Assembly: GCA_021791055.1 (NCBI GenBank)
Contig: JAJYXI010000049.1
Span: 31,977 to 95,976 of the forward strand
DNA from: Nitrospirota bacterium
GTDB lineage: Bacteria > Nitrospirota > Thermodesulfovibrionia > Thermodesulfovibrionales > Dissulfurispiraceae
Reading direction: 5' to 3'
DNA length: 64,000 nucleotides
Position numbers and translations under genes: made by a program
Part shown: positions 19,853 through 60,030 of the stretch, in pieces
How the letters are laid out: each line of letters opens with the position of its first letter
How positions within the stretch are numbered: position 1 is the first letter of the stretch
Notes under the pieces: generated by a model
What the model was told of the DNA's origin: nothing
Database searches by the model: none
Seen by the model: the letters and a program-made list of their open reading frames with translations, nothing else

Positions 19853-20605
19853 TTAACCAATCATATTGGCAGGATCCACAGGCACCCCGCCTTTCCTCAC
19901 CTCAAAGTGGAGATGTGGACCTGTTGATCTCCCTGTCGAGCCTGACAACGCTATAGTCTTGTTTTTATCCACAACATCTCCGGTCTTAACAAGGTTAACA
20001 GAATTATGGGCATAAAGGCTTGTCAGACCATTTTCATGCTCCACAATTACACAGTTCCCGTACCCTGATGAAAATCCGCTGAAAACCACCCTGCCCGATG
20101 CCGCAGATGCCACCGGTGTACCCTCCGGCATAGCAATATCTATCCCATTGTGATGCCGTAGTTTTCCATCAATAGGGTCGTGTCTCAAGCCGTATCCCGA
20201 GGTTATTCTGCTGTCTGCAGGGATATTTAGTTTTCCATCGAAATGCAGGCTATGTTTATCCGCTTTTGGAAAAACATTAAGTTCTGGTTTGGAATTCTGA
20301 TTTCCTGACAGTGGACTTCTCAAAAAGAAATCTCCAAATCCGATTCCCCTTTCGGCAAGGGATTTGGAAATCTCTGATGTTATATAAGGCATATATGTCG
20401 AAACAGTCCTGTCTTTGCCAAAAGATGTCTGTTCCATCATTACCTTCAAAAACTCGTTCAGAAAAACGGTTTCCATCTGTTTTGCTATAGCCTTTGGGTC
20501 ATTTGAGTTAAGAGTTTGGAGTTTAGGATTTACCCCCCCTTGCCCCCCCTTACCAAGGGGGGGATTAGGGGGGGTATCTGACTGCTGATTGCTGACTATC
20601 TTCAC
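19853..20605 (-). CDS. flgJ: Rod-binding FlgJ with C-terminal M23 peptidase domain
   Basis: A 250-residue protein. Residues ~35-97 are the rod-binding FlgJ N-domain (PKAIAKQMETVFLNEFLKVM, ending GIGFGDFF). Residues ~125-250 are a LytM/M23 metallopeptidase: H152 in HHNGID with D156, H200 in YAH, and HLHFE at 231-235, the full Zn site. E. coli FlgJ instead has a muramidase there, so here the rod gap in peptidoglycan is probably opened by cutting peptide cross-links. The start is GTG overlapping the flgI stop. The first ~25 residues are encoded by a heptamer arm and a C-rich palindrome and replace any normal N-terminus. The gene is the last of the flgF operon. Confidence 0.9.
   Translation of the reverse strand: MKIVSNQQSDTPPNPPLGKGGQGGVNPKLQTLNSNDPKAIAKQMETVFLNEFLKVMMEQTSFGKDRTVSTYMPYITSEISKSLAERGIGFGDFFLRSPLSGNQNSKPELNVFPKADKHSLHFDGKLNIPADSRITSGYGLRHDPIDGKLRHHNGIDIAMPEGTPVASAASGRVVFSGFSSGYGNCVIVEHENGLTSLYAHNSVNLVKTGDVVDKNKTIALSGSTGRSTGPHLHFEVRKGGVPVDPANMIG
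20530..20598. repeat. C-rich palindrome plus heptamer arm at flgJ start
   Basis: Positions 20530-20576 hold the C-run/G-run palindrome centred on CCTTACCAAGG. Positions 20577-20598 are CTGCTGA/TTGCTGA units. They encode [20 protein letters not shown] of FlgJ. Arrangement and frame match the copy at pyrD. Confidence 0.8.
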
Positions 20606-21741
20606 ATTATCACCAGTTCTGCCCTAAGACTTCCTGAAGTCTTAATCGCCTGTAAAATTGCCACGAGGTCTTTTGGCGTTACACCCAGCACATTAAGCGC
20701 TTTGACCAACTCGCCTATTGTTGCTCCTTTTACTTCAACCAGAGGGGCCTTCTTTTCTTCCGCCTTCATTTCTACCTTAGGAACTATAACCGTTTCTGCA
20801 GATGGAGGAGCAAACGGAGGGGGCTGAACAACTTCATACTCAACTTTAATTTCTATTGTTAACCCGCCATGAGCAAGGGCAATCGGATTTATGCGGACAT
20901 TTTCACCGATGACAACCGTACCGGTCCTTTCATTAATCACAACCCTTGCAGGCATATCCACATCTACGTTTATAAGTTCGATTTTTGACATTAACTCTAC
21001 TACCCTGTTCGCGTAGACATCAGGAGCTTTTATGGAGACAACCGATGGTCCCTCAGCTTTAGCAAAGCTTCCTCCAAGACTCCCATTTATTCCATCAGCT
21101 ATTTTTTTTGCAGTTGTAATATCCTGAACCGTTAATAAAAGATCCAGCCTGTGCTTATCATTTAATTGCACAGGGACCTCTTTTTCCACAATTGCGCCAT
21201 TAGGCACAGAACCCACATTAGGATGATTCTTAATCGCCTGAGCGCCTGTTCCACCAGCCACAAAACCACCGATGGATACAGAACCCTGCGCAACTGCATA
21301 AACATTACCATCAGGCCCCTTCAATGGCGTCATCAAGAGAGTTCCTCCCTGAAGACTTTTTGCATCGCCGATAGACGATACCTGCACATCCACCTTCGAT
21401 CCGGGTCTTACCATCGTGGGCAATTTTGCAGTAACTATTACCGCTGCTATATTCTTTGTCTTTCCCTTTAAATCGGCAGCATTTATACTGATTCCCATTC
21501 TTGTAAGCATGTTGGCAAAGGGCTGGAATATGTACGTACCAATTTTATCCCCGGTGCCGTTAAGCCCGGCAACAATTCCGTATCCTATAAGCTCATTTTC
21601 CCTTATGCCCGAGAATGAGGCGACATCCTTTATCCTCTCAGCATGAACGACAGTGAACAGTGAACAGTGAACAGTGAACAGTAAAAAACAAAAAACAACA
21701 GCTTTTTTCATTTTTTCAATATATCCGGTTTTTGAATTCAT
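20602..21741 (-). CDS. flgI: Flagellar P-ring protein FlgI
   Basis: A 379-residue periplasmic ring protein around the rod in the peptidoglycan layer. After the signal peptide the mature part starts ERIKDVASFSGIRENELIGYG, the family hallmark, and it continues with GLNGTGDK and TRMGI. The ending AIKTSGSLRAELVIM is also typical. The ATG at 21741 has AGGAG upstream. The signal peptide (hydrophobic FCFLLFTVHCSLFTVVHA) is encoded by four tandem TGTTCAC heptamers, read in successive frames. It overlaps flgJ by 4 bases. Confidence 0.96.
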   Translation of the reverse strand: MNSKTGYIEKMKKAVVFCFLLFTVHCSLFTVVHAERIKDVASFSGIRENELIGYGIVAGLNGTGDKIGTYIFQPFANMLTRMGISINAADLKGKTKNIAAVIVTAKLPTMVRPGSKVDVQVSSIGDAKSLQGGTLLMTPLKGPDGNVYAVAQGSVSIGGFVAGGTGAQAIKNHPNVGSVPNGAIVEKEVPVQLNDKHRLDLLLTVQDITTAKKIADGINGSLGGSFAKAEGPSVVSIKAPDVYANRVVELMSKIELINVDVDMPARVVINERTGTVVIGENVRINPIALAHGGLTIEIKVEYEVVQPPPFAPPSAETVIVPKVEMKAEEKKAPLVEVKGATIGELVKALNVLGVTPKDLVAILQAIKTSGSLRAELVIM

Positions 21742-21792
21742 TCTTTATGCTCCTTTTTGCTATTCACTAACCACTGTTCACTATTCACTGTC
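21650..21792. repeat. Heptamer-arm hairpin around the flgI start
   Basis: The arm at 21650-21682 has GTGAACA units in tandem, and the arm at 21761-21792 has the complementary TTCACTA/TTCACTG units. They bracket the flgI ribosome site and start codon. The inner arm encodes LFTVHCSLFTV of the signal peptide. Folding of the mRNA could mask the start, which is inference. Confidence 0.75.
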
Positions 21793-21793
21793 T

Positions 21794-22564
21794 TTAAAAC
21801 GGCCATACCTTATCCAAAAATCTCACTAACCATCCCTGTGACTGCTTGTCATCCAGAACACCATCTCCAACAAAGTATATCTGGGCATCAGCTACATATT
21901 GCGACAAGACTGTGTTACTCGGAGATATATCATCCGGTCTCACAATACCTCTTAATACCAGTATCTCCTTTTCATTGTTCACGACCACCTCTTTCCTTGA
22001 TTCAAGCACAAGGTTCGAGTTAGGCAAAACCTCCACAACCTTTGCAGTTATCGTGCCGGCAAGCTTTCCTTCCCTTGCTGTATCGCCCTTGCCTTTAAAA
22101 TCAGACTTCCCGCTGCCTTTTGCAGACGGAGAAAACACATTGGTACCTTTATAAAAACCATTTACCATAGGTAGCTTTTGTATGCCAAAGTCTTTATCCA
22201 TCCCGAAAAGGTCGTCCAACCCATAATCTCCAGATGAATCACGATTTGCATTGGTCGTCGCCTTCTTAGATGCAACAGATTTTTCATTAATAACTATTGT
22301 CACAAGATCGTTTGTTCTCCTCGCCCTTCTGTCTTCAAAAAGAGATGCACCGTCTTTCCACAGAGAGCCTTCGGATGAGTATGTCTCTTTCTCCTTTGTC
22401 TCCACATATTTCTGAGGCATTGGTGCGCTCTTTATATCACGGGCATCCTTTAAGCCGGAACAACCAATAAGGACTGCAGATAGTAGCCAGTAGCCAGTAG
22501 TCAATAGCAAAAATTTTATCTTTGACTCTTGACTCTTGACTCTCGACTCTCGACTCTCTTTCAT
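21794..22564 (-). CDS. flgH: Flagellar L-ring lipoprotein FlgH
   Basis: A 256-residue outer-membrane ring lipoprotein. The lipobox is VLIGC with the lipidated cysteine at about residue 35. Family motifs follow: SLWKDGASLFEDRRARRTNDLVTI and NSNLVLESRKEVVVNNEKEILVLRGIVRPDDI, with GIVRPDDIS the best known. The n-region and hydrophobic core of the signal peptide (MKESRESRVKSQESKI, then LLLTTGYWLLS) come entirely from two heptamer arrays. The start ATG overlaps the flgA stop (ATGA), so coupled translation is likely. Confidence 0.95.
   Translation of the reverse strand: MKESRESRVKSQESKIKFLLLTTGYWLLSAVLIGCSGLKDARDIKSAPMPQKYVETKEKETYSSEGSLWKDGASLFEDRRARRTNDLVTIVINEKSVASKKATTNANRDSSGDYGLDDLFGMDKDFGIQKLPMVNGFYKGTNVFSPSAKGSGKSDFKGKGDTAREGKLAGTITAKVVEVLPNSNLVLESRKEVVVNNEKEILVLRGIVRPDDISPSNTVLSQYVADAQIYFVGDGVLDDKQSQGWLVRFLDKVWPF
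22479..22558. repeat. Heptamer arrays encoding the FlgH signal peptide
   Basis: On the plus strand 22479-22506 has TAGCCAG units, and 22521-22558 has GACTCTT/GACTCTC units. On the minus strand the second encodes ESRESRVKSQES and the first TTGYWLLS. The arms are partly complementary (AGTCAA/TTGACT). Confidence 0.75.
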
Positions 22565-23310
22565 ATCTTCACCCTCACTGTATTTGATGATGTCAGAACT
22601 CCGCTCACCTCTTTTTTAGAGACATCGCATAAAACCCGTGCCGTCCCGCCTATAACAGCATCGCTCCTAAGCACCCCTTGAGTTGTTATAATCATATTAC
22701 TCCCTTCCACAACAACATCAACCTTTTGCCCCCTTTTAATGCTCAATTGAGTTGTTAAATGATCAACTCTTATAATAACCCCCTGCCCTATATTTGCCCT
22801 AAGAACCTTCTTCTCGATATCGTTTCTGTTTAATGCCGCACCAGCAGGCAATTTTGAGCTTTTTTGTCTTACGGCATAGAAATCTTCTGGAGTCAATGCC
22901 GTTCCCTTCGTGAGAGGCCTTGAGGTAATAAAAACATCCACAAGGACATCATAAGACGCCTCAACAATTATATTTTTCCTGCCCATCCTCTTATCTCTAA
23001 GGCCAACCGTAAAATTAATCTTATTACGCCCGGCATATCCATTCATTACTACAGTGCTAACTTTATAACCCTCTAAACCATCTAAAGCGTCCATCCCTTC
23101 AACCACTCTCAATCCATTAATCTCAACATCTTCAGAAACCGAATTTTTCAGCTCCTTCAGTATCATCCGGTTAATATCTGACATCAGGTTTTCCTTTTCA
23201 GCAGATTCAGATATACCGGTGAGCAGTAAGCAGCAAGCGCTAAACACTAACAGATAGAAGATGATTTTCTTCCTATCGCCTATTGCCCATTGCCTATCGC
23301 CTTTCATCAT
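22561..23310 (-). CDS. flgA: P-ring assembly chaperone FlgA
   Basis: A 249-residue periplasmic chaperone for FlgI polymerisation. It has a signal peptide at residues 1-~37, then an N-terminal domain. The SAF domain (~115-180) begins VFITSRPLTKGTALTPEDF and contains VLRANIGQGVIIRVDHL. The C-terminal ending (GTARVLCDVSKKEVSGVLTSSNTVRVKI) is typical. GAGGAG lies before the first ATG. The charged n-region GDRQWAIGDRKK and the hydrophobic core both lie in heptamer arrays. Confidence 0.92.
   Translation of the reverse strand: MMKGDRQWAIGDRKKIIFYLLVFSACCLLLTGISESAEKENLMSDINRMILKELKNSVSEDVEINGLRVVEGMDALDGLEGYKVSTVVMNGYAGRNKINFTVGLRDKRMGRKNIIVEASYDVLVDVFITSRPLTKGTALTPEDFYAVRQKSSKLPAGAALNRNDIEKKVLRANIGQGVIIRVDHLTTQLSIKRGQKVDVVVEGSNMIITTQGVLRSDAVIGGTARVLCDVSKKEVSGVLTSSNTVRVKI
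23219..23301. repeat. Heptamer-arm hairpin encoding the FlgA signal peptide
   Basis: The left arm has GAGCAGT/AAGCAGC/AAGCGCT units and the right arm CTATCGC/CTATTGC/CCATTGC units, separated by a T-rich spacer. On the minus strand these encode GDRQWAIGDR and SACCLLL of the FlgA signal peptide. Confidence 0.7.
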
Positions 23311-51010: not shown

Positions 51011-51280
51011 TCACCTCACATACATTGGTATATTTTCAAATATACTCCTCGTAAATCCCACCAATATTTTGACCATCCACGGCAGCGCAACGAGCAATGT
51101 AATGAAAACAGCTATTATCTTGGGCACAAAGGTCATGGTCATTTCCTGAAGCTGGGTTATTGCCTGAAAAATACTTATTAATATTCCGATAATAAGGCTG
51201 ACCAGCAATACAGGACCTCCCACCAGCAGTATTGTTTCGAAGGTCTGCCTTGATATCTGATTTAATAATTCAACTGTCAT
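51011..51280 (-). CDS. fliQ: Flagellar export gate protein FliQ
   Basis: An 89-residue protein with two membrane helices and the family pattern ETILLVGGPVLLVSLIIGILISIFQAITQLQE, in which GILISIFQAITQ is most typical. Full FliQ length. Its ATG overlaps the FliO-FliP stop (ATGA), indicating coupling. Confidence 0.96.
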   Translation of the reverse strand: MTVELLNQISRQTFETILLVGGPVLLVSLIIGILISIFQAITQLQEMTMTFVPKIIAVFITLLVALPWMVKILVGFTRSIFENIPMYVR

Positions 51281-52326
51281 CTAAATCCTCCAATCAGCGA
51301 ACCTATCAGCAGATCCCATCCATCTACAAGGACAAACAGAAGCAGTTTAAAAGGCATGGAGATCATAATTGGAGGAAGCATCATCATACCCATAGAAAGA
51401 AGCACGCTCGCAACAACCATATCGATGACGAGAAAGGGCAGGAAGATAAGAAAACCTATCTCAAATGCCTTCTTAAGTTCGCCAATTGAGAAGGCAGGAA
51501 TAACAACCCTCATCGGCAGGTCCATAGGAGTTGCAGGCCTCTCGGATTTCGACATCTTTAAAAAAAGCGCAAGGTCTTTTTCCCTTGTCTGCTTCAGCAT
51601 AAATTCCTTCAATGGAACTCCTGCCCTATTAAGCGCCTCTTCCGCATTTATTTCCTTTTTTGAATAAGGCTGATATGCATTTGTATAAATATTGTCAACA
51701 ACCGGTGACATAATGAACAGTGTAATAAAAAGCGCCAGGCCGATTATTACCTGTGTAGGCGGAACCTGCGGTGTTCCAAGCGCCTGTCTAAGAAATGAGA
51801 GCACAACCACTATCCTCGTAAAGGATGTAGTCATAACGAGTATTGCAGGCAGTATAGAGAGCAGTGTAAGGAATAAAAGCAATTCAAGGGGAGTGGTTAA
51901 ACCGAGGAATCCTCCACCGGCAGGCGGAGGAGGCACAGGTGCAGCAAAGACAGAAGAAGACAGAACACAGAACACAGAAGACAGAGCACAGACAAAGATA
52001 AAAAACTTGCTTCTCTTTAATAAATCTTTTATTCTGACTTCTGACTTCTGACTTCTGTCTTCTGTCTTCTGAAGTGCTTCTTCCACATCAATAGGATTGG
52101 GTTTGCTGAGAAGGGATATGTTTTCATCAGCAACGCCTACAACGAGATACTCCTTTAAGACCTTAATAACTGCAATTCCCCTTTTGGGTCCGAATGGCTG
52201 ATATTGAACTATTTCGATCATTCCTTTATGTGGTAAAATCCTCTGCTTTAGAAATCTGAGAAGCAGATAGAGCCCGCCGAGGACAATCAGCAGTGCAAGT
52301 GTAACTTTAATTAGCTCTATACCCAT
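51277..52326 (-). CDS. fliP: FliO-FliP fusion of the flagellar export gate
   Basis: A 349-residue single open frame. Residues 1-~86 are FliO (one membrane helix ~7-24, then the small cytoplasmic domain GMIEIVQYQPFGPKRGIAVIKVL). Residues ~129-349 are FliP with its signature stretches (PAILVMTTSFTRIVVVLSFLRQ, GTPQVPPTQVIIGLALF). The junction (~87-128) is encoded by two heptamer arrays. It contains a signal-peptide-like core ending SSSVFA before APVPP. FliP normally has a cleaved signal, so signal peptidase could separate the two halves after synthesis. No ATG, GTG or TTG with a ribosome site lies in the junction, so an independent FliP start is unlikely. Confidence 0.9.
   Translation of the reverse strand: MGIELIKVTLALLIVLGGLYLLLRFLKQRILPHKGMIEIVQYQPFGPKRGIAVIKVLKEYLVVGVADENISLLSKPNPIDVEEALQKTEDRSQKSEVRIKDLLKRSKFFIFVCALSSVFCVLSSSVFAAPVPPPPAGGGFLGLTTPLELLLFLTLLSILPAILVMTTSFTRIVVVLSFLRQALGTPQVPPTQVIIGLALFITLFIMSPVVDNIYTNAYQPYSKKEINAEEALNRAGVPLKEFMLKQTREKDLALFLKMSKSERPATPMDLPMRVVIPAFSIGELKKAFEIGFLIFLPFLVIDMVVASVLLSMGMMMLPPIMISMPFKLLLFVLVDGWDLLIGSLIGGFR
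51949..52071. repeat. Heptamer arrays joining fliO and fliP
   Basis: The left arm (51949-51997) has ACAGAAG/ACAGAAC units and the right arm (52033-52071) has the complementary TTCTGAC/TTCTGTC units. On the minus strand they encode the linker KTEDRSQKSEV and the FliP signal core ALSSVFCVLSSSVFA. Confidence 0.8.
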
Positions 52327-59514: not shown

Positions 59515-60030
59515 CTACTGGGAAGTTTTTTCCTGCAGAACTTTCCCCTTTATGAGTATCTTCTTTGAAAGTGATGCAGCCCTGTCGCTTTCCATCTGCG
59601 CCAGTATCTTGCCGGCAATCTTAGGCTTGAGTGAGTTTAATATAATTACTGCCGTATCTTCATCAAGTTTTTCCAATTTTCTTGCAGCCTCTTCAGGAGG
59701 CATTGCCTCGTACATCTTTGCAACTTTGAGCAGGCCTTCCTGAATCTTAAGATCTAAAGCCTTCTGAACTCCTTCCATCTCTTTTTTAAGCTTTTCAAGG
59801 CGTTCGATTTCTTTCTTAATATCTGCCTTGAGGATGTTAAGCCTATCTTCTTCCAGAGACCTCTGTTGTGCTGCTGGTTGCTGTTCCTTTTGTTGAGCAA
59901 AAGACAGGTGATAGGTAATAGGTAATAGGTTATAGGTCATAAAGAATAGGAAAAAAATAAAAAGCCTTAACCTATAACCCATAACCCATGACCTATGATC
60001 CTTTTTTTCTGTGATGTCCTGTGGCAGCAT
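59515..60030 (-). CDS. motE: Flagellar protein MotE-like (MgtE N-domain, coiled coil)
   Basis: A secreted or anchored protein of up to 171 residues. A hydrophobic signal/anchor lies at ~20-46. A coiled coil (~55-100, EEDRLNILKADIKKEIERLEKLK region) follows. The C-terminal ~60 residues match the MgtE N-domain found in MotE/FlbB: YEAMPPEEAARKLEKLDEDTAVIILNSLKPK, with MPPEEAA the hallmark. MotE supports stator proteins in the periplasm. The start is uncertain: ATG 60030 overlaps fliJ by 38 bases, while ATG 59982 lies just after it and would give MGYRLRLFIFF. The signal region is encoded by heptamer arrays. Confidence 0.85.
   Translation of the reverse strand: MLPQDITEKKDHRSWVMGYRLRLFIFFLFFMTYNLLPITYHLSFAQQKEQQPAAQQRSLEEDRLNILKADIKKEIERLEKLKKEMEGVQKALDLKIQEGLLKVAKMYEAMPPEEAARKLEKLDEDTAVIILNSLKPKIAGKILAQMESDRAASLSKKILIKGKVLQEKTSQ
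59903..60000. repeat. Heptamer-arm hairpin encoding the MotE signal region
   Basis: The left arm has ACAGGTG/ATAGGTA/ATAGGTT units and the right arm AACCTAT/AACCCAT/AACCCAT units. On the minus strand these encode WVMGYRL and MTYNLLPITYHLS, the hydrophobic start of MotE. Confidence 0.78.

Follow-up and report, generated by a model that had tools for sequence, protein, structure and literature searches.

Heptamer repeat arrays probably overwrite the signal peptides of flagellar and other exported proteins in Nitrospirota

Cyanobacterial STRR repeats are heptanucleotide tandem arrays. Heptanucleotide long simple sequence repeats (LSSRs) have been reported by Mrazek et al. 2007 (as described in PMC4679880), TAACTGA repeats occur in Beggiatoaceae, cyanobacteria and Bacteroidetes (MacGregor 2015, PMC4679880), and the passages on Geobacter metallireducens in PMC2700814 describe elements of four tandem heptamers, with other classes of five heptamers or four octamers. 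Repeats are also known within proteins: Rickettsia palindromic elements (RPEs) are protein-coding palindromes (Ogata et al. 2000, as reviewed in PMC2229807 and PMC2996958), and a Yersinia YPAL/RU-2 repeat in YPO1552 supplies part of the predicted signal peptide (Delihas, PMC2229807). Here we describe period-7 arrays in the consecutive flagellar genes flgI, flgH and flgA on a 64,000-nucleotide stretch from a Nitrospirota bacterium (GenBank assembly GCA_021791055.1, contig JAJYXI010000049.1, positions 31,977 to 95,976; hereafter the window). Comparison with further stretches of this genome (G000, 2.55 Mb), with a sibling (G002, a single contig of 2.37 Mb) and with further relatives leads us to conclude that a fast-turnover, genome-wide family of 7- and 8-nucleotide arrays probably overwrites, time and again, the n-regions and hydrophobic cores (h-regions) of existing Sec signals, with the start region and cleavage site staying in place, and that signal peptides are its most permissive coding target. 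The genomes are mostly metagenome-assembled, one per species, and gene starts are those of a crude caller.

Perfect lag-7 runs of at least 12 bases number nine within the window, whereas Markov shuffles give about 0; there is a rise at lags 14 and 21 too, and hardly any at the rest. Period-7 arrays were called with TRF, and local repeat strength is expressed as lag-7 identity (Table 1). The FlgI array translates as LLFTVHCSLFTV, and the peptides first read from the letters, LFTVHCSLFTV in FlgI and TTGYWLLS in FlgH, are correct translations. The upstream flgI arm could not be coding because its unit has TGA on the minus strand (unit translation EQ, stop, TVNS), and a Shine-Dalgarno-like AGGAG and the ATG lie between the two arms. 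FlgI, FlgH and FlgA, together with many other proteins, have by sequence and heuristic the Sec layout of a basic n-region, a hydrophobic core, and an A-X-A motif or lipobox. The FlgI cleavage point is inferred from the ...HAERIKD stretch conserved among homologues. Each gene retains a non-repeat cleavage site or lipobox (FlgI VHA↓ER, FlgH LIGC, FlgA ESA↓EK), and the original prediction has to be narrowed here, the cleavage region not being repeat-derived. Its array-built FlgA signal stands clearly for the n-region, but the FlgA core array is degenerate, with 63% lag-7 identity (matched or exceeded in 0.7% of sequence windows); a clean version is found in sibling G003 (CTTACTGCTTACTGCT). The description of these repeats as hairpins likewise suits flgI (RNA fold z = −8.96 versus shuffles, 21650-21795) and, modestly, flgH (−2.5), but not flgA, for which a z of −0.38 indicates no hairpin.

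Table 1. Genes and repeat arrays of the window (arrows mark predicted cleavage points; positions are those of the window)
Feature	Position (strand)	Repeat unit or arm	Encoded sequence	Basis
flgI, flagellar P-ring protein	20602..21741 (-)		signal MNSKTGYIEKMKKAVVFCFLLFTVHCSLFTVVHA↓ERIKD	Pfam FlgI 7.9e-128, ORF (open reading frame)
FlgI 3' arm	21650..21682 (-)	TGTTCAC x4.7, 100% match	hydrophobic core, LFTVHCS period	TRF; lag-7 identity 1.00
FlgI 5' arm	21763..21791 (-)	AGTGAATAGTGAACAGTGGTTAGTGAATAG, complementary to FlgI array	flgH-flgI spacer	TRF
flgH, L-ring lipoprotein	21794..22564 (-)		signal MKESRESRVKSQESKIKFLLLTTGYWLLSAVLIG↓C	Pfam FlgH 3.5e-59, lipobox LIGC
FlgH core array	22482..22508 (-)	CTACTGG	hydrophobic core LLTTGYWLLS	TRF; lag-7 identity 0.75
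FlgH second array	22522..22557 (-)	GAGAGTC/AAGAGTC	n-region KESRESRVKSQESK	TRF; lag-7 identity 0.85
flgA, P-ring chaperone	22561..23310 (-)		signal MMKGDRQWAIGDRKKIIFYLLVFSACCLLLTGISESA↓EK	Pfam ChapFlgA 1.6e-21
FlgA core array	23219..23255 (-)	degenerate TTACTGC-type	hydrophobic core SACCLLLT	lag-7 identity 0.63
FlgA n-region array	23272..23302 (-)	AGGCGAT/AGGCAAT	n-region MMKGDRQWAIGDR	TRF
FliO-like then FliP-like, single ORF	51277..52326 (-)		FliP signal at the join	family assigned by reading, without profile
FliP 3' arm	51955..51992 (-)	TCTGTGT/TCTGTCT	hydrophobic core VCALSSVFCVLSSSVFA	TRF
FliP 5' arm	52032..52071 (-)	CAGAAGACAGAAGTC	n-region KTEDRSQKSEVR	TRF, arm pairing
Exported MotE-like protein (MgtE_N-like domain)	59515..60030 (-)	two arms, 59968-59993 and 59906-59941	N-terminus

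The arrays extend across the chromosome. Among periods 4-24 in 400 kb of G002 and 325 kb of G000, the dominant one is 7, with 53 and 74 arrays; period 8 comes second with 18-21, most other non-multiples yield 0-8, and periods 6, 9, 10 and 11 are rare. Enlarged samples (800 kb of G002 and 619 kb of G000, 1.42 Mb together) hold 147 period-7 arrays with 71 distinct units, located in intergenic DNA, at the ends of genes and, in frame, in mid-gene. Arrays internal to open frames number 35 and 49. The coding-strand unit of intragenic arrays is stop-free in 68 of 77 cases, and the antisense unit contains a stop in 44 of the 77. We called signal peptides with our own simple hydropathy/charge heuristic and took the first 35 codons as the signal window. 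Arrays per 100 kb reach 83.5 (G002) and 98.9 (G000) in the signal windows, 36.6 and 30.5 in intergenic DNA, 16.3 and 23.1 in the first 35 codons of genes lacking a signal, and 6.5 and 11.7 in the remaining coding sequence. Signal-coding segments are thus the densest location found (P = 0.003 versus intergenic DNA, P = 1.7e-9 versus coding sequence), and 15 of 173 signal windows bear an array compared with 18 of 1257 others (P = 1.4e-6). The expectation that arrays would recur at the starts of exported proteins is borne out in this sample, as is the broader proposal that a repeat family read in all frames supplies n- and h-regions in many exported proteins. The repeats are not confined to signals: the majority lie between genes or in the remainder of coding sequence. 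Arrays affect ten or more exported families, profile-identified examples being OEP/TolC (twice), M16, M23, a YfiO-type TPR lipoprotein, HlyD, LolA (twice), TPS, SLH, NosL, LptA, FlgI, FlgH and FlgA. N-terminal arrays are also present in the non-exported proteins FlpD, HycI, CbiG, RapZ, PyrH, a fumarase C-terminal domain protein and CbiO.

Orthologues differ strongly in the units that they carry. FlgI has TTCACTG in G000, TCTGTTA in G001 and G003, and TTGTCTG plus TCTTCTG in G002, all of one genus; ACGCATT-type units appear elsewhere in the family (G015, G006), and CTTATCA and TTACTCG at the level of the order (G028). FlgI signals are ordinary and repeat-free in many further relatives, G017, G026, G024 and G008 among them. 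For TolC and LolA, orthologues were sought with the mature sequence alone as query. TolC contains TCTGTCT in G000 and G012, octamers in G002, G003, G015 and G028, CTTCAGT in a distant G026 homologue, and no array in G001; LolA contains TTTAGCC in G000, G001 and G003, TTTTGCC in G015, an octamer in G002, TCTGTGT in G012, TTCACTG in G028, and no array in G026. Siblings thus have unrelated units, or none, at the same signal position, and the cleavage site and mature protein still align: the ...HAERIKD region of FlgI is conserved across the differing arrays, and the cleavage regions of TolC and LolA are kept despite the changes of unit. The same peptide encoded without the repeat, which in distant genomes would have refuted the original prediction, was not seen; homologues lacking the repeat have other peptides. 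These alignments support turnover of existing signals by arrays.

The trait is patchy. Nitrospirae/Nitrospirota records supply the nearest of the named FlgI loci, and four of 80 such loci are array-rich (L077, L078, L079 and L110). With units other than those of the window, L077 (Nitrospirae HyVt-268) has arrays in the FlgA, FlgH and FlgI signals, L078 (a deltaproteobacterial metagenome-assembled genome) in those of FlgA and FlgH, and L079 (Thermodesulfovibrio sp.) in that of FlgI. As a reversed-pattern control is uninformative for the mirror-symmetric TCTGTCT, the search for particular units was redone with TTCACTG; three-unit arrays occur in 28 of 296 Nitrospirota genomes, with a low control in nearly all of the genomes. 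The 30 loci from these 28 genomes comprise 15 in signal peptides or prepilin leaders of proteins that by resemblance are M16, LolA, prepilins and others, seven elsewhere within genes and eight outside genes. Prepilin leaders of the form KKLFTVHCSLFT.KKGFTLIE are TTCACTG-built at L230, L232, L240 and L241. An internal CbiB site bears a TTCACTG array (SRSLFTVHCSLKTM) in four genomes (L223, L224, L226, L234) and is among the few conserved array positions.

Many arrays are hairpin arms, as neighbouring arrays are reverse-complementary at 5.0 of 7 positions versus 3.98 ± 0.16 on permutation; other sites have a single arm, or arms that are unrelated or non-complementary. RNA fold z-scores at nine sites span −8.96 to +1.75 (M16 +1.75, CbiM +0.19), and these scores, with the arm-pairing results, led us to abandon the notion of a hairpin at every array. 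Arm order within signals is regular: seven of the eight arrays before residue 20 are purine-rich, and all nine after it pyrimidine-rich (P = 4e-4). Among all 16384 heptamers, purine-free arrays have a mean hydropathy of +1.05, and pyrimidine-rich ones are on average stop-free and hydrophobic; seven-purine arrays have a hydropathy of −3.07 and +1.75 charges per heptapeptide, purine-rich arrays being basic and hydrophilic. By arithmetic alone, the same cyclic peptide is read in every frame, since neither 7 nor 8 shares a factor with 3, and the frame of entry therefore does not alter the peptide. The unit sets the layout: the purine strand of TTCACTG has TGA, and the flgI arm lies upstream of the ATG, whereas for TCTGTCT neither strand has a stop and the ORF contains both arms (TolC, FliP). 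We envisage that arrays arise across the whole chromosome, often as paired hairpin arms, by slippage or hairpin copying, and that they would be tolerated in signals if the signal machinery senses gross chemistry alone. The genetic code would render the purine-rich arm as a basic stretch and its pyrimidine-rich partner as a stop-free hydrophobic one, so that a purine-first hairpin would be a ready-made n-region plus core. Signals built in this manner probably function, and tolerance more than benefit would account for the enrichment in signal-coding DNA.

Several points weigh against such overwriting of tolerant signals. The heuristic could be biased by the arrays themselves, a problem that the independent family calls lessen but do not eliminate, and the gene starts depend on the crude caller. 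A stable RNA hairpin is missing at several signal arrays, and the hairpin is therefore not essential. Moreover, the density in signals exceeds that between genes, which is not obviously expected from tolerance alone; this excess is a hint that some arrays are kept for benefit, and it may call for some positive selection or for the hydrophobic strand being retained. It is possible, if doubtful, that the period-7/8 hairpin arrays go further and act as an active signal-peptide generator, providing n- plus h-region cassettes in any frame, with rapid replacement of signals in array-rich lineages and, occasionally, new exported proteins, split polyproteins or phase-variable export. We regard as unlikely a regulatory role, in which the arrays would act on translation or mRNA life as 5' hairpins or repeat-binding sites, or would be phase-variable tracts, and would yield the signal peptide incidentally. 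In favour of this, flgI has a very stable hairpin (z = −8.96) with the Shine-Dalgarno sequence and ATG between its arms, translational control was proposed by MacGregor for TAACTGA repeats upstream of starts (PMC4679880), and a change of one unit would shift the frame; however, arrays lie just as often inside genes and between them, several signal arrays fold no better than shuffles, and 71 units offer no common sequence for a binding protein.

The suggestion in the original prediction that new secretion signals originate from the repeats, if taken to mean that proteins formerly without export gain it, appears improbable to us. New signal sequences are indeed generated by arrays (FlgI, TolC, LolA, TTCACTG loci), and a precedent is the Yersinia palindromic repeat in the signal peptide of YPO1552, a putative exported protein (PMC2229807), of which it forms a part. 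Yet no cytosolic family was found to gain secretion: every profile-identified family whose signal is array-made is an ordinarily exported one, repeat-free homologues of FlgI, TolC and LolA already have ordinary signals, and PyrH, RapZ, FlpD and CbiO have N-terminal arrays but no hydrophobic core. Insertion in frame of one ancestral mobile sequence, similar to RPEs or miniature inverted-repeat transposable elements, is very unlikely; although two-arm hairpins with short loops, and in-frame arrays at equivalent sites (CobB linker, CbiB, FliO-FliP), would suit such an element, there is no shared core among the 71 units of 147 arrays, loops and flanks are unrelated by eye, and many arrays are single-armed or have non-complementary arms. 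Chance repeats from leucine/phenylalanine codon slippage in ordinary low-complexity hydrophobic sequence deserve next to no credence, for although signal cores are pyrimidine-rich and low in complexity, only periods 7 and 8 are seen, a spectrum that refutes codon-run slippage, lags 3, 6 and 9 give 0-1 arrays, codon shuffling gives 0, and the signals of array-poor loci have arrays in only 2 of 120 windows.

Elsewhere in the window, the stretch joining FliO and FliP is a heptamer hairpin that encodes the FliP signal (Table 1). The joined ORF is also present in sibling G002 (L162:6850-7120), with no stop between the halves in either species, and is explained either by an unusual start codon or by a FliO-FliP polyprotein that is cleaved at the signal. 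The MotE-like orthologue in G002 (L162:14781-15290) is built of other units, TGTTTTC. A second palindrome-like in-frame insert, coding PPxPPLxKGGxGG, has several copies in G000 (window positions 20533-20605; L051 14568-15899, 17352-19295 and 9436-10464), one example being at the N-terminus of an FlgJ-like M23 peptidase. The cobalamin gene cluster is an array hot spot in both G000 (L051) and G002 (L050), with ∼20-27 arrays of 7 or 8 nucleotides per 20 kb; nearly all are intragenic, often at corresponding sites in the two genomes with differing units. A larger repeat also lies between genes of G002, in three or more similar copies, each with a period-7 and a period-8 array (L047 9192-9283 and 10692-10794, L049 9635-9731), which may be a mobile carrier.

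Signal peptides are degenerate, and the origin of their sequences is poorly documented. In the lineages compared here, repeats appear to replace signals species by species in conserved proteins, the old cleavage site remaining as a landmark, which would provide a natural experiment in how little sequence a signal requires and a testable link from the composition of a repeat's strands to the topology of the peptide encoded. For annotation, N-termini such as LFTVHCSLFTV are to be read as convergent repeat translations and not as homology.

Heptamer repeats, in-frame elements and one repeat-made signal were already known; no report of heptamer arrays systematically coding signal peptides was found in the open-access literature, nor any of a systematic, recurrent, unit-changing construction of signals in conserved exported proteins. 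Like LSSRs, as described in PMC4679880, and STRR repeats, the arrays are short tandem units with period 7 dominant, far above chance and patchy across bacteria, but here the units vary by site, arms pair as hairpins, many arrays are intragenic, and they are densest in signal-coding DNA. TAACTGA repeats share the period and the asymmetry of one strand with stops in all frames and one open (LSVISYQ; compare VNSEQ-stop and LFTVHCS here), but are of a single fixed unit, mostly upstream of starts, and signal peptides are unmentioned in PMC4679880. The TAACTGA/TCAGTTA unit is absent from the 45 commonest of our 71 units, the window arrays being TTCACTG, CTACTGG, GAGAGTC and AGGCGAT. The Geobacter metallireducens elements likewise occur as heptamer tandems between and within genes; in the passages that describe them (PMC2700814) they have a fixed consensus per class and are filed as regulatory, with no link to signal peptides. 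As reviewed, RPEs resemble our arrays in being palindromic DNA in frame at tolerant sites of many unrelated genes, but are copies of one element of 105-146 bp, whereas no conserved element is shared here, the sequence being site-specific and formed of 7- or 8-nucleotide tandem units. The YPAL/RU-2 case, finally, involves just one fusion and one putative new protein, whereas here the replacement is recurrent and involves many conserved exported families.

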